A stretch of DNA of 64,000 nt, taken from contig JAJDAN010000032.1 in assembly GCA_029261855.1 (NCBI GenBank), positions 1-64,000 on the forward strand, written 5' to 3'. The stretch is from Deltaproteobacteria bacterium (GTDB taxonomy: Bacteria; Myxococcota_A; UBA9160; UBA4427). The notes beneath the pieces were generated by a model. The model was not told the origin of the DNA. It saw only the letters and a program-made list of their open reading frames with translations, and made no database searches. Made by a program: the position numbers and the translations under genes. Below are positions 1 to 63,934 of the stretch, one piece after another (the first letter of the stretch is position 1; each line of letters begins with the position of its first letter).

Positions 1-231
1 GACAAGCTGTGCTGCGAGGCGCGACCTGGAACGCAGCAACGGGCCGCCCAAGCAGAACTTGCGAACGGGTAGCCCGCGAGTGGTGTGGCCCATCGCGCGA
101 CTCGCAGCGCGCCACGGGAGGCAACGACGAACGAGGCTGCCAGGCGGCGCGAAGCTCAAACCGTGCCGACTGCCCCGAGTGCGCAGCTCTTGAGTTGAGA
201 GAGCCAAGTGCGCGGACCGAGAGTCGTCGCT
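1..231 (-). repeat. Repeated integron cassette, copy 0 (cut by window edge)
   Basis: Partial copy of the recurrent ~400 bp cassette, similar to 367-766, 1684-2081, 2216-2615 and 2750-3151. In array (minus) orientation a frame beginning with TTG about 20 bp after the attC end is open to the window edge and begins LALSTQELRTRGSRHG. The opposite strand frame that is open in copies at 494 and 2881 has a TAG here. No function recognised. Extends beyond the window. Confidence 0.7.
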
Positions 232-366
232 GTATAACGGATAGGCGCTCAGCTGCGTGGCCCAGCGCCACCGAAGACAGCTCAAGCACCAAGGTTCGAA
301 GGCAGAAGGCTACCAAACGCGAGCAACTCCCTGATGGGCCACGTCTGCTGCTGCGCCTTGTTAGAC
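232..366 (-). repeat. attC site, type 2
   Basis: Integron recombination site read on the minus strand: R'' box GTCTAAC at 360-366, R' box GTTATAC at 232-238, with complementary inner arms (GCAGCAGACGTGGC near one end, GGGCCACGCAGCTGAGCGCC near the other). Near-identical to 1550-1683, 2082-2215 and 2616-2749. It closes the cassette lying at 367-766. The R' box departs from GTTRRRY at one position. Confidence 0.85.
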
Positions 367-766
367 AGTCGACGCGCGTACCTGCCCCAACAGCGACTCG
401 CCTGAGAGAGGAAGCTCTAGGCCCAAACGGGGGGTACCACGGCTGCCTGCTCGAGCCCTGGCAACAGACCCCGGGCAAGCGTGGGCCGTCGCGATGAGTG
501 GCACGCATGAGCCCACGCTCCGCGGCCCGCGCTGCGACAAGCTGCGCTGCGAGGCGCGACCTGGAACAGAGCAACGGGCCAGCAAAGCGGAACTTGCGAA
601 CGAGGAGCCCGCGAGTGGTGTGGCCCATCGCGCGGCTCGCAGCGCGTCACGGGAAGCAACGACGAACGAAACTACCGGGCGGCGCGAAGCTCAGGCCGTG
701 CCGACTTCCCCGAGTGCGCGGCTCCTAAGGTGAGAGAGCCAAGCCCGCGGATCGAGAGTCGTCGCT
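367..766 (-). repeat. Repeated integron cassette, copy A
   Basis: Body of a cassette lying between two attC sites, clearly similar along its length to copies 0, B, C and D. In array orientation the TTG-started frame is closed after five codons by TAG and again by TGA further on, so this copy cannot make the ~108-residue product of copy D. On the plus strand a 79-codon frame (494-733) is open and starts at ATG. Function unknown; the mixed frame state argues for non-coding DNA or decaying ORFs. Confidence 0.75.
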
Positions 767-901
767 GTATAACGGATCGGCGTTCAGCGGCCAGCAACAG
801 CGCTGACTGAAACCGATCCTGTCGACAGAGTATGCCGCCAGGCGGCAGCCAAGGTCAATCGAGCCGAGCTGTTGATGGTCCGCTGCAACGGCATGTTGGA
901 C
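767..901 (-). repeat. attC site, type 1
   Basis: Minus-strand attC with R'' GTCCAAC at 895-901 and R' GTTATAC at 767-773. Inner arms TTGCAGCGGACC and GGCCGCTGAACGCC are complementary. It belongs to the same class as 3152-3286 and the right-end site 63802-63934, and differs from the type 2 sites that follow the repeated cassettes. It closes the cassette carrying the secreted protein at 911-1543. Confidence 0.85.
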
Positions 902-910
902 GGCGCGCGC

Positions 911-1543
911 TCAATCGCACCCCGGGCAGGCAGAGACAAGGGGCAAGAGGCCGCCTTCGGCAAGGAGCTCTGACACCGCGAGACCGGTTTCCCACGTGTA
1001 GGGGACCGTGTGCCAGTACTCGGGCAAGCCGTTTTCGTTGAAGTCGGAAACAGCGAGCAGTTCAGCGTGTACGCACTGCTCTTCTCCCGGCGGATAGTCT
1101 CCTTGGGAAACGCAATCGGGTTTCATCTCTCGAAGCGAATTCCGCTCGGCGCGGGTAGGGCTTCGCAGCGCCAGTTCCGGATCGGAGACCCAGAGCCGCC
1201 ACGACTTCCATGGAGACGCTGAGAGTTCTGCCGGGTACTCGCAGTGGTTGACCCCATGGAGATCCATGTACGGCTGGATCGATTTGATGCTGCTTCCCGT
1301 AGCGCTTGTGGATACCGCTTCGTGGAGCGTCAGGCCCACCGACAGGCTGCGCCCGTCGTAAGGCTGGAGCTTCTTCGTCACGAGCAAAGCGAGCGAGTTG
1401 AGGATCGGCGCGCCGGGCGCGGTGTAGCCAACGAAGACAGCCCCTTGTGGCAACGACCCAGAAGTGGAGCACTGGGGATCGCCGTCAGCGAGGGCGACGG
1501 ACGAGGCGAGAAGGAGAATGACGATGGTCGCTACGGTACGCAT
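911..1543 (-). CDS. Secreted hypothetical protein on an integron cassette
   Basis: A 210-residue product from ATG at 1543; an in-frame TTG at 1555 lies inside the neighbouring attC and is less likely. Residues 1-18 (MRTVATIVILLLASSVALA) form a Sec signal peptide with an ALA cleavage site. The mature part holds several Cys residues (PQCS, NHCEY, PDCVS, EQCVH, SACPGCD) that could form disulfides, and a DFNENGLPEYWH stretch resembling an EF-hand-like or thrombospondin type 3 calcium loop. The stop codon is only about 10 bp from attC 767-901, the tight packing expected of a cassette gene. No family recognised; probably periplasmic or exported. Confidence 0.75.
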   Translation of the reverse strand: MRTVATIVILLLASSVALADGDPQCSTSGSLPQGAVFVGYTAPGAPILNSLALLVTKKLQPYDGRSLSVGLTLHEAVSTSATGSSIKSIQPYMDLHGVNHCEYPAELSASPWKSWRLWVSDPELALRSPTRAERNSLREMKPDCVSQGDYPPGEEQCVHAELLAVSDFNENGLPEYWHTVPYTWETGLAVSELLAEGGLLPLVSACPGCD

Positions 1544-1549
1544 CGCGCC

Positions 1550-1683
1550 GTCCAACGGATAGGCGCTCAGCTGCGTGGCCCAGCGCCACCGAAGACAGCT
1601 TGAGCACCGTGATTCGAAGCCGAAAGGCTACCAGACGCGAGCAACCCGAGATGGGCCACGTCTGCTGCTGCGCCTTGTTAGAC
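1550..1683 (-). repeat. attC site, type 2
   Basis: Minus-strand attC with R'' GTCTAAC at 1677-1683 and R' box GTTGGAC at 1550-1556, and the same inner arms as 232-366. The R' box is a perfect GTTRRRY. It closes repeated cassette copy B; the adjacent next cassette is the secreted protein at 911-1543. Confidence 0.85.
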
Positions 1684-2081
1684 AGTCGACGCGCGTACCT
1701 GCCCCAACGACGCGCCGCCTGAGAGAGAAAGCTCTAGGCCCAAACGGGGGGTACCACGGCTGGCAGCTCGAGCCCTGGCAACGGAACACGAGCAAGCTCG
1801 GACCTTCGCGATGCGTGGCACGCATGAGCCCACGCTCCGCTGCGCGCGCGTCGACAAGCTGCGCTGCGAGGCGCGACCCGGAACACAGCAACGGGCCATC
1901 GAAGCGGAGCTTGCAAGCGGGAAGCCCGTGAGTGGTGTGGCCCATCGCGCGGCTCGCGGCGCGTCACGACGCAACGACGAGCCAAACTACCGGGCGGCGC
2001 GAAGCTCAGCTCGTGCCGACTGCCACGAATGCGCGGCTCCAAAGATGAGAGAGCCAAGCCCGCGGATCAAGAGCCGTCGCT
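1684..2081 (-). repeat. Repeated integron cassette, copy B
   Basis: Fourth cassette from the integrase. About 400 bp, similar to the other copies. A TTG-started minus frame of 107 codons (1734-2057) shares its first ~25 residues and its last ~10 residues (PAVVPPVWA) with copy D but is frame-shifted between them, so only the ends agree. A plus-strand frame from ATG 1811 also shifts relative to copies A and D. No reliable product can be named. Confidence 0.75.
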
Positions 2082-2215
2082 GTATAACGGATAGGCGCTC
2101 AGCTGCGTGGCCCAGCGCCACCGAAGACAGCTCGAGCACCAAGGGTTGAAGCCAGAAAGCTACCAGACACGAGCAACCCGAGATGGGCCACGTCTGCTGC
2201 TGCGCCTTGTTAGAC
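2082..2215 (-). repeat. attC site, type 2
   Basis: R'' GTCTAAC at 2209-2215 and R' GTTATAC at 2082-2088 on the minus strand, with the shared type 2 arms. Closes repeated cassette copy C. Confidence 0.85.
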
Positions 2216-2615
2216 AGTCGACGCGCGTACCTGCCCCTAACTGCGGCCCGCCTGAGAGAGAAAGCTCTAGGCCCAAACGGGGGGTGCAACGGCTGCCAGC
2301 TCGAGCCCTGGCAACGAACTTCGGGCGAGCTCGGACCGTCGCGACGCGTGGCACGCATGAACCCACGCCCCGCCACGCGGGCGGCAACAAGCTGCGCTGC
2401 GAGGCGCGACCCGGAACGGAGCACCGGGCCATCGGAGCGGAGCTTGCGAACGGGGAGCCCGCGAGTGGTGTGGCCCAGCGCGCGACTCGCAGTGTGCACG
2501 AGAAGCAACGACGAACGAAACTACCTGGCGGCGTGAAGCTCAGCTCGTGCCGACTGCCACGAATGCGCGGCGCCAAAGATGAGAGAGCCAAGCCCGCGGA
2601 TCGAGAGCCGTCGCT
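2216..2615 (-). repeat. Repeated integron cassette, copy C
   Basis: Third cassette from the integrase. The minus frame from TTG near 2591 starts MALSSLAPRIRGSRHELSF as in the other copies, then shifts frame after about 30 residues relative to copy D and reads on into attC. A second minus frame keeps the segment GHTTRGLPVRKLRSDGP found in copies 0, B and D. Nucleotide similarity is kept while reading frames are not. Confidence 0.75.
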
Positions 2616-2749
2616 GTATAACGGATAGGCGCTCAGCTGCGTGGCCCAGCGCCACCGAAGACAGCTCGAGCACCAAGGTTCGAAGCCAGAAGGCTACCAA
2701 ACGCGAGCAACCCCAGATGGGCCACGTCTGCTGCTGCGCCTTGTTAGAC
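2616..2749 (-). repeat. attC site, type 2
   Basis: R'' GTCTAAC at 2743-2749 and R' GTTATAC at 2616-2622 on the minus strand. Closes repeated cassette copy D. Confidence 0.85.
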
Positions 2750-3151
2750 AGTCGACGCGCGCACCCGCCCCCAACGACGACCCGCCTGAGAGAGAAAGCT
2801 CTAGGCCCAAACGGGGGGTACCACGGCTGCCAGCCCGAGCTCTGGCAACGGGTCACGGGCGAGCCCCCGGCCTTCGCGGTGCGTGGCACGCATGAACCCA
2901 CGCCCCGCCGCCCGCGCTACGACAAGCTGCGCTGCGAGGCGCGACCTGGCACCCAGCAACGGGCCGTCGAAGCGGAACTCGCGAACCGGGAGCCCGCGAG
3001 TGGTGTGGCCCATCGCGCGGCTCGCAGCGCGTCGCGGGAAGCAACGACGAACGAAACTACCAGGCGGCGCGAAGCTCAGGCCGTGCCGACTTCCCCGAGT
3101 GCGCAGCTCTTGAGTTGAGAGAGCCAAGTGCGCGGACCGAGAGTCGTCGCT
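2750..3151 (-). repeat. Repeated integron cassette, copy D
   Basis: Second cassette from the integrase and the copy with the longest tidy frame: minus 2801-3127, TTG start, 108 codons, basic and rich in Arg, Ser, Pro and Ala (MALSTQELRTRGSRHGLS at the start, AAVVPPVWA at the end). Copy 0 keeps the same frame as far as it is visible, but copies A, B and C break it. If coding, this is the ancestral ORF; no domain is recognised and no convincing ribosome binding site is seen. Confidence 0.7.
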
Positions 3152-3286
3152 GTATAACGGATCGGCGTTCAGCGGCCAGGAACAGTGCTGACCGACCCCG
3201 ACCCTGCCGACCCAGTATGCCGCCAGGCGGCAGCCAGAGTCAATTGAACCGAGCTGTTGCTGGTCCGCTGCAACGCCTTGTTGGGC
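3152..3286 (-). repeat. attC site, type 1
   Basis: Minus-strand site of 135 bp: R'' GCCCAAC at 3280-3286, inner arm AAGGCGTTGCAGCGGACC, opposite arm GGCCGCTGAACGCC, R' GTTATAC at 3152-3158. Same class as 767-901 and 63802-63934. Closes the first cassette, whose gene is 3296-3601. Confidence 0.9.
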
Positions 3287-3295
3287 GGCGCCTGG

Positions 3296-3601
3296 CTAAT
3301 TCGTCGGACGAGCAGGGGGTAGTTCGGGCTCCTGCACCCAGCCGTGTCGCTCCATGCACTCTTCAAACTCTACTTCGGCAGTGAACCCGTCCGACAGCTG
3401 GTTGTAGGTGCCGTCACCGTCCTGTCGGCGGTCGGCGCGTTGGATGGCAGAACAAAGCCCAGCGTCAGAACGCCAACGCTGCAGAACCTCGGTCGATGAA
3501 TCGGCAGGGTCATCAGGGGGCCAGTACCAGAAGCGTGGACTGCGGGTGTTGGCGCATCCTGCCAATGACAGAACAAGGGCTGAAACTGTCAACAATCGCA
3601 A
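3296..3601 (-). CDS. Small lipoprotein, first cassette gene
   Basis: A 101-residue product starting at TTG 3601. Residues 1-16 form a lipoprotein signal with lipobox LAGC, so Cys16 should be lipidated and the protein anchored in an envelope membrane. The mature part is acidic to neutral with two further Cys (GLCSAI, EECMERHGW). The start lies about 10 bp from the attI junction and the stop about 10 bp from attC, so the gene fills the cassette. As the first cassette it is best placed for expression from any integron promoter. No family recognised. Confidence 0.75.
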   Translation of the reverse strand: MRLLTVSALVLSLAGCANTRSPRFWYWPPDDPADSSTEVLQRWRSDAGLCSAIQRADRRQDGDGTYNQLSDGFTAEVEFEECMERHGWVQEPELPPARPTN

Positions 3602-3606
3602 CTTGC

Positions 3607-3631
3607 GCCGCCCAACTAGTTATTGACCCGC
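3607..3631 (-). other. attI: Putative attI insertion site
   Basis: The first cassette ends at a GTTGGGC box (3610-3616, minus) that has no attC partner on its integrase side, so the sequence from 3617 toward intI is the attI flank. The motif GGTCAATAACTAGTTGGGC resembles the right-end junction at 62984-63008, with 20 of 25 positions equal over the full segment. Position is inferred from the array boundary, not from a known attI sequence. Confidence 0.65.
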
Positions 3632-3854: not shown

Positions 3855-4853
3855 TCAGAGGCGCTCCGCGGGACTTGTGACTCCGAGGGGGCCGCTTTGG
3901 GCGGCGTGGGTGTAGATCATCGTCGTCTTGAGGTCTCGATGACCCAGCAGTTCCTGGATGGTTCGGATGTCGGTGCCGGCTTCCAGCAGGTGGGTCGCGA
4001 ATGAATGGCGGAAGGTGTGGGTCGTGATTCGCTTCTCGATGCCGGCGGCGCGGGCGGCTTTTCGGACGGCGCGCTGGGGCACGGACGGGTGCAGGTGGTA
4101 GCGGACCATTTCTCCGGTTCTCGGGTTCGGGGTCAGGCGGGTTGCCGGGAACAGCCACTGCCATTGCCATGACCTCGCGGCGTCCGGCCCGAGCTTCCTG
4201 GCCTGCGCGTAGGGGAGGGGTGCGCAGCCGGCGCCGTCTTCGCGGTCGCTGTCGTGAAGGCGTCGTACCTGGGTCAGGTGCTGCTGCAGTGGCGCCCGCA
4301 GGCTTCTTGCCAATGCGGTGAAGCGGCTCTTGCGGCCTTTGCCCTGGCGGACGCACAGCTGGTTGCGATCGAAGTCCAGGTCCTTGACCCGCACCCGCAG
4401 GCCTTCGATCAGCCGCAGACCGCTTCCGTACAGCAGCGTCACGATCAACTGGTTGCGGCCGTGCAGGTGGGCCAACACGGTTCGGACTTCGTCGACGCTC
4501 ATCACCACGGGGATGGGACGTTCGCCCCGCGCACGGGTTGCCGCCTCGAGCCCCTCGAGGTCGCGTGAGAGGATCGTCCTGTAGAGGAACACCAGCGCGC
4601 TCTGCGCTTGACGTTGGGTGTTGGGGCTCACTTCGAGATCGACGGCCAGGTGCGTCAGGAAGGTGATCACTTCAGGCTCTCCCATCGCGCGCGGGTCGCG
4701 ATTGTCGTGGAAGCGCACGAAGCGCGTCATCCAACGCAGGTAGGTCTTCTCGCTGGACGGGCTGTAGTGACGCCGCCGCATGACGTCGCGCACGTGCTCG
4801 GAAAGGCGTTGCCCCGGCCGCGCAGCTGCAGGCGAATCGTCCACGTTCGTCAC
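3855..4853 (-). CDS. intI: Integron integrase IntI (tyrosine recombinase)
   Basis: A 332-residue tyrosine recombinase that inserts and excises gene cassettes by recombining attI and attC. Residues ~15-100 form the SAM-like N-terminal core-binding domain. Catalytic residues are visible: R147 in YGSGLRLIE, K172 in QGKGRK, H279 and R282 in HTFRHS, H305 in LLGHRDL and nucleophile Y314. The IntI-specific insertion is present at ~225-262 (SWQWQWLFP, then RYHLHPSVPQRAV), which separates IntI from XerC/D. Starts at GTG 4853. It is transcribed toward the cassette array, opposite to class 1 integrons. All motifs look intact, so it is probably active. Confidence 0.95.
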   Translation of the reverse strand: MTNVDDSPAAARPGQRLSEHVRDVMRRRHYSPSSEKTYLRWMTRFVRFHDNRDPRAMGEPEVITFLTHLAVDLEVSPNTQRQAQSALVFLYRTILSRDLEGLEAATRARGERPIPVVMSVDEVRTVLAHLHGRNQLIVTLLYGSGLRLIEGLRVRVKDLDFDRNQLCVRQGKGRKSRFTALARSLRAPLQQHLTQVRRLHDSDREDGAGCAPLPYAQARKLGPDAARSWQWQWLFPATRLTPNPRTGEMVRYHLHPSVPQRAVRKAARAAGIEKRITTHTFRHSFATHLLEAGTDIRTIQELLGHRDLKTTMIYTHAAQSGPLGVTSPAERL

Positions 4854-63801: not shown

Positions 63802-63934
63802 GCCTAACAAGTCGTTGCAGCGGACGTGCTAGCGCCTGGGCGTTCTCGTGGCGTGGTAGGATCAAGTTCTTCTTGCGTGTTCAGTGGGCTCTCGGCAGGT
63901 TGCCGCACGCCGCTGAACGCCGGTCCGTTGGGCG
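63802..63934 (+). repeat. attC site, type 1 (right array)
   Basis: R'' GCCTAAC at 63802-63808 and R' GTTGGGC at 63928-63934, both perfect to the RYYYAAC / GTTRRRY consensus. Arms CAAGTCGTTGCAGCGGAC and CCGCTGAACGCCGGTCC are complementary and match attC 3152-3286 read on its own strand. Orientation is opposite to the left array. Confidence 0.92.

Follow-up and report, generated by a model that had tools for sequence, protein, structure and literature searches.

A gene-less integron cassette multiplied in a Myxococcota genome is probably passenger or selfish DNA

An integron is a gene-capturing platform. What, then, does a cassette without a gene do in one, and how did it come to be there in several copies? 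The question is raised by a draft Myxococcota genome (6.96 Mb, 91 contigs), at the beginning of its contig C32, of which we analyzed the first 64,000 nt (hereafter the window). Positions 1–3157 hold four complete copies and one truncated copy of a single cassette family of 532–536 bp, here called K, which reads on the minus strand. The first-pass annotation of this DNA had reported five homologous copies; these are real, its coordinates being right within a few bases, and their bodies are 83–92% identical. It had also described the family as conserved in DNA and not in protein, and had proposed a DNA or RNA function or selfish amplification.

The complete copies in the window, all gene-less and all on the minus strand, are K1 (2622–3157, attC 2616–2749), K2 (2088–2621, attC 2082–2215), K3 (1556–2087, attC 1550–1683), and K4 (238–772, attC 232–366). 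Given this orientation, the attC site of each copy lies on its lower-coordinate side. The equally gene-less K5 (1–237, minus strand) was cut by the assembly, since window position 1 is the end of the contig, and its attC lies beyond that end. The earlier statement that all visible copies keep their own type 2 attC therefore holds for the four complete copies, K5 being truncated before any attC comes into view. Throughout the family, a body of 405–409 nt is followed by an attC of ~130 nt, the latter being 91–99% identical between copies. Each junction coincides with the G|TT at which attC is cleaved, and all six complete copies in the genome begin with TTATAC. Since these copies share both the start, TTATACAGCGACG, and the terminal attC, in which R' supplies the G, the copied unit is exactly one cassette.

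Two complete copies are found outside the window, each on another contig of this genome: K6 (C10:1825–2360) is flanked by a cassette of another gene-less family, N2, and by a coding cassette, and K7 (C31:171759–172295) opens the cassette array that follows an attI-like site. A further, probable cut copy at C10:1–138 comprises an attC preceded by the final 9 nt of its K body. In total, the genome carries at least seven copies of this cassette of ~535 bp with a recombination site and no gene: six complete, four of them in one array, plus the cut copy at the start of C32. The copies match in blastn at E-values of 1e-95 or lower, far beyond chance. The contig boundaries C32:1 and C10:1 both interrupt a K copy, which suggests that the assembly broke in the K repeat and that further copies exist. 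Downstream of attI, the order on the minus strand is a cassette with a lipoprotein-like ORF, K1, K2, K3, a cassette with a 214-aa ORF, K4, and K5. K1–K2–K3 form one tandem run; the upstream neighbors of the copies comprise four distinct contexts, namely, the lipoprotein cassette (K1), the 214-aa cassette (K4), N2 (K6), and the attI-like site (K7). The same cassette is hence found in different contexts, as expected of a mobile one.

The machinery that could move it is encoded next to the array. The integron integrase IntI (3855–4853, minus strand, 332 aa) scores 411 bits against NCBIfam TIGR02249 (cut-off 265), aligns over nearly its full length with IntI4 (2a3v, E = 1.8e-82), including the tyrosine-recombinase motifs, and is the sole full-length integron integrase in the genome, present as a single copy. 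Among named records, its nearest relatives, at 72% and 61% identity, are found in Myxococcota MAGs; the assignment of the host to this phylum rests on these relatives and on a grouping of genomes by kinship. The gene for IntI is read in the direction of attI, an arrangement also seen at the related loci L024 and L045. From the sequence, the attI core site is GTTGGGC after ACTA (3610–3616, minus strand), with a 16-nt block, ATAACCCGAATGGGGC, ~65 nt upstream that aligns with a block of the attI-like site on C31. The first cassette (3158–3615, minus strand; type-1 attC 3152–3286) contains an ORF of 101 aa (3296–3601) with a lipoprotein-like signal peptide and no Pfam or NCBIfam family. The coding cassette between K3 and K4 (773–1555, minus strand; type-1 attC 767–901) contains the 214-aa ORF (911–1555), the start of which resembles a signal peptide and which matches no family in Pfam, NCBIfam, PHROGs, or PADLOC.

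A covariance model for attC, trained on 15 sites from the genome itself (threshold E ≤ 0.01), matches 78 sites on five contigs (C10, C28, C31, C32, C42), and the integron is therefore a large sedentary chromosomal one with dispersed arrays. The attI-like site before K7 (L019:14290–14400, i.e., C31:172289–172399 of this genome, G000) combines a TAACTAGTT core with ATAACCCGAATGGGGC, the spacing between them being similar to that at the attI of the window. A thiolase-like gene lies upstream of it and no integrase is found there, the only one being on C32; judging by sequence, the C31 array looks like an integrase-less array begun at a duplicated attI and served in trans. A second small attC cluster, in the opposite orientation, occupies window positions 63802–63933 (plus strand) and C32:65075–67326, with no integrase nearby. 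As single-stranded DNA, attC folds better than shuffled sequences (z = −2.2 and −1.9). In 29 cassettes on the five contigs (C10, C28, C31, C32, C42), the 5' end of the cassette complements the bases immediately preceding that cassette's own R'' box; beyond the R boxes, complementarity averages 5.0/8 with the own cassette vs 3.8/8 with the start of the next one (Wilcoxon p = 3e-4), and the attC stem would therefore gain length in an excised circle relative to a mixed array.

Does the body of K encode a protein? Its variable columns (120/408) are spread evenly over the codon phases (37/42/41; chi-square p = 0.78), Nei–Gojobori pN/pS for all pairs of copies lies between 0.78 and 0.96 in every one of the six frames, and of seven indel events, each of 1–2 nt, none has a length divisible by three. 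On either strand, every frame is interrupted in at least one copy, in line with the stops and frame shifts noted earlier. The positive control, a duplicated coding cassette of a relative (genome G305; 87% identity, 351-nt ORF), run with the same code, behaves in the opposite way, with differences by phase of 15/5/25 and pN/pS of 0.077/0.275 = 0.28; its copies (L163:3782–4150 and L175:4147–4515, minus strand) encode a membrane-type protein of ~116 aa. The phase test, pN/pS, and the indels rule out protein coding in all six frames: the K body is not a gene, and there is no selection for protein in any frame. The excess of synonymous changes, which the first-pass annotation had named as the result that would overturn its non-protein reading, was sought and is absent.

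It is scarcely credible, then, that K encodes a small protein and that errors of sequencing or assembly account for its stops and shifts. The draft state of the genome (91 contigs) and the contig ends within K copies fit such errors, but indel errors cannot produce substitutions that are flat over phases and frames, and the duplicated coding cassette of the relative looks normal under the same test. Another possible link to a protein concerns the origin of K, as a decayed remnant of an ancestral gene cassette copied after the death of its gene, and is compatible with the explanation of its spread favored below. An open frame of 164 codons in K7 can be traced, with breaks, in the other copies, and degenerate genes are known among the gene-less cassettes of Vibrio (PMC11014356). 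However, the longest translations of K have no relative in Pfam, NCBIfam, PHROGs, or PADLOC, nor, in a translated search of 379 genomes (378 of them other Myxococcota), outside their own genome, and we regard this origin as rather unlikely. Since pN/pS is flat in six frames, any protein constraint on K ended before the copies split.

Could the product be an RNA? Small RNAs can be encoded by integron cassettes, e.g., sRNA-Xcc1 of Xanthomonas (via PMC12444791), and a multi-copy, gene-less cassette with conserved ends would suit a functional non-coding RNA of this type. However, Rfam gives no match for K, neither to a catalogued RNA family nor to the remnant of a group II intron. The fold energy of the whole body is within 1.4 sd of shuffled sequences on both strands (z from −0.4 to −1.35), windows of 60 and 120 nt across K average near zero except in attC, and the covariation term of RNAalifold is a penalty on both strands (+3.06 and +2.12). 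Pair counting on the cassette strand does yield a slight excess over letter shuffles, which we attribute to the structure having been derived from the same six sequences. Under a cleaner control, where substitution patterns of columns were permuted among columns of equal consensus base, this signal is lost on the cassette strand (p = 0.19–0.43); on the antisense strand, one of four measures gives p = 0.008 and three are null. A conserved fold is thus unsupported by fold energy, RNAalifold, and permutation at the limited power of six copies, and the covariation check suggested in the first-pass annotation came out negative. A weakly structured RNA could still be made from K, six related sequences offering limited power; a functional RNA as the reason for the copies seems improbable to us.

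The substitutions are distributed unevenly along the cassette. In attC, 17/128 columns are variable, vs 120/408 in the body (p = 2e-4), which is about twice as variable except at its ends: the first ~40 and the last ~80 nt together have 17/120 variable columns, and the middle has 103/288. These borders were picked after inspection of the data; an unbiased permutation of 20-nt bins gives p = 0.006. The description of K as conserved DNA is hence accurate for attC and the body ends but too strong for the middle. In an excised circle, the two ends and attC form one contiguous stretch of ~250 nt. The copies are also mosaic-like, with 510/1035 informative site pairs incompatible (PHI-type p = 0.017). 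Either a signal resides in the conserved ends, or exchange between copies is most frequent beside attC.

One such signal might be a promoter, in which case K would transcribe the cassettes behind it and copies throughout the array would wake silent genes. Of 29 gene-less cassettes from Vibrio, the majority carry promoters in the sense orientation (PMC11014356), gene-less cassettes of Treponema also bear promoters (PMC6557892), and the K body over its final ~80 nt, conserved as strongly as attC, might hold a signal facing the next cassette. Against this analogy, a consensus scan, which covers Myxococcota promoters poorly, finds no sigma70-like site in any K copy; its only two matches belong to type-1 attC sites, those upstream of K1 and of K4. 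These two, of the form TTGACY-18-CATACT, face the following K (window 3214–3243 and 829–858, both on the minus strand; 2 found vs 0.3 expected). The tandem run K1–K2–K3, moreover, would add little for driving genes. On balance, a promoter function appears unlikely, if conceivable.

Multiplication itself separates K from most of its neighbors. Among 68 parsed cassettes, only K (six complete copies) and N2 (two copies) have paralogues at the DNA level, the other 60 being singletons. N2 is a second ORF-less family with an attC of the same type as in K; its copies (L018:1377–1824, plus strand, and L019:13313–13759, minus strand) are 92% identical over 449 bp, with differences by phase of 10/8/8, no conserved frame, and an ORF broken in one copy. 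The N2 body contains several short palindromes, e.g., GCTTCGCAAGC. A common origin of the K and N2 bodies was considered and ruled out, as they have no real similarity outside attC. Since only these two families are multi-copy and both are gene-less, the two properties coincide in this genome.

Beyond this genome, no K homologues were found among other genomes of the family (29), the class (90), or the phylum (378), nor in plasmids, phages, and viral contigs; the copies in other genomes that the first-pass annotation had thought worth seeking did not turn up, and those outside the window are the ones on other contigs of the same genome. Short matches in 27 other Myxococcota genomes (25–80 nt, scattered, E from 1e-6 to 1e-3) were rejected as chance-like similarities of G+C-rich DNA. 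A cassette stretch of this genome (L020:18891–19691) is 94% identical to one (L174:657–1456) in G182, the only sampled congener, which has no K; within the genus, then, cassettes are shared and K is private.

Taking all this into account, we consider it probable (roughly 0.6) that K consists of paralogous non-coding cassettes spread by copy-and-paste of the integrase and represents passenger or selfish DNA in a sedentary chromosomal integron. Of the possibilities left open by the first-pass annotation, selfish amplification is the one the data support best, and it is reached by inference. IntI would fold and cut single-stranded attC, recombining the folded bottom strand, and an excised K would re-enter at attI or at another attC. 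Copies would accumulate because semi-conservative excision leaves the original in place; such copy-and-paste duplication of cassettes has been described (PMC8024014). A gene-less cassette with a good attC would then build up unless harmful. Homologous recombination may have contributed to the growth of the K1–K2–K3 run, and the copies would be kept alike by exchange among them. K would be retained mainly because its attC is a good substrate for the integrase and the cost of the insert is low. That K confers some benefit, whether as a promoter, through an antisense RNA, or by spacing the array, is possible but hypothetical.

Three observations speak against K as a mere passenger. The body ends vary as little as attC, which would not be expected of pure junk unless conversion tracts spread from attC; a regulatory cassette would also be gene-less and multi-copy; and one of the four measures in the antisense structure test was significant. 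More tentatively, K and N2 might both be selfish, gene-less substrates of the integrase, with constraint acting only on the ends and attC (~250 nt) and the middle drifting; if so, they would be the cassette counterpart of non-autonomous transposons.

How does K compare with known gene-less cassettes? Under an RNA reading alone, it would resemble the sRNA-Xcc1 cassette of Xanthomonas, which has an RNA product; K differs from it in showing no fold or covariation signal and no Rfam match, and in being private to one genome and multi-copy there. With the promoter-active cassettes of Vibrio and Treponema (PMC11014356; PMC6557892) it shares the lack of a gene, an attC of its own, and a location in a chromosomal array, and in Treponema integrons intI is likewise transcribed towards attI (PMC3607928). 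Those cassettes, however, were chosen as gene-less and not as multi-copy, and the consensus scan finds no promoter-like site in K. The likeness is closest to the paralogous non-coding cassettes of Vibrio, which are 84–88% identical, show no synonymous pattern, and are often paralogous (Boucher et al., 2006; PMC1382264), with six non-coding copies per array in DAT722 and up to 45 in V. vulnificus CMCP6 (PMC1382264). K shares with them the absence of an ORF, an own attC, multi-copy arrays, similar identity, no synonymous-site pattern, no recognizability as a pseudogene, and restriction to a lineage (PMC1382264). It differs in its host phylum (Myxococcota), high G+C content, unrelated sequence, an integrase transcribed towards the array, and occurrence in, so far, one genome; most Vibrio examples have homologues in related arrays, although 8/25 non-coding cassettes of DAT722 have none (PMC1382264). 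The multiplication of gene-less cassettes alone repeats the Vibrio report in another phylum, and Boucher et al. gave the same two explanations as are considered here (PMC1382264). Gene-less cassettes in G+C-rich DNA, with their long spurious ORFs, are easily misannotated as proteins. K is of a kind already described in Vibrio, its Myxococcota member is new, and it allows a direct test of whether such cassettes are selfish or useful, a question of long standing.
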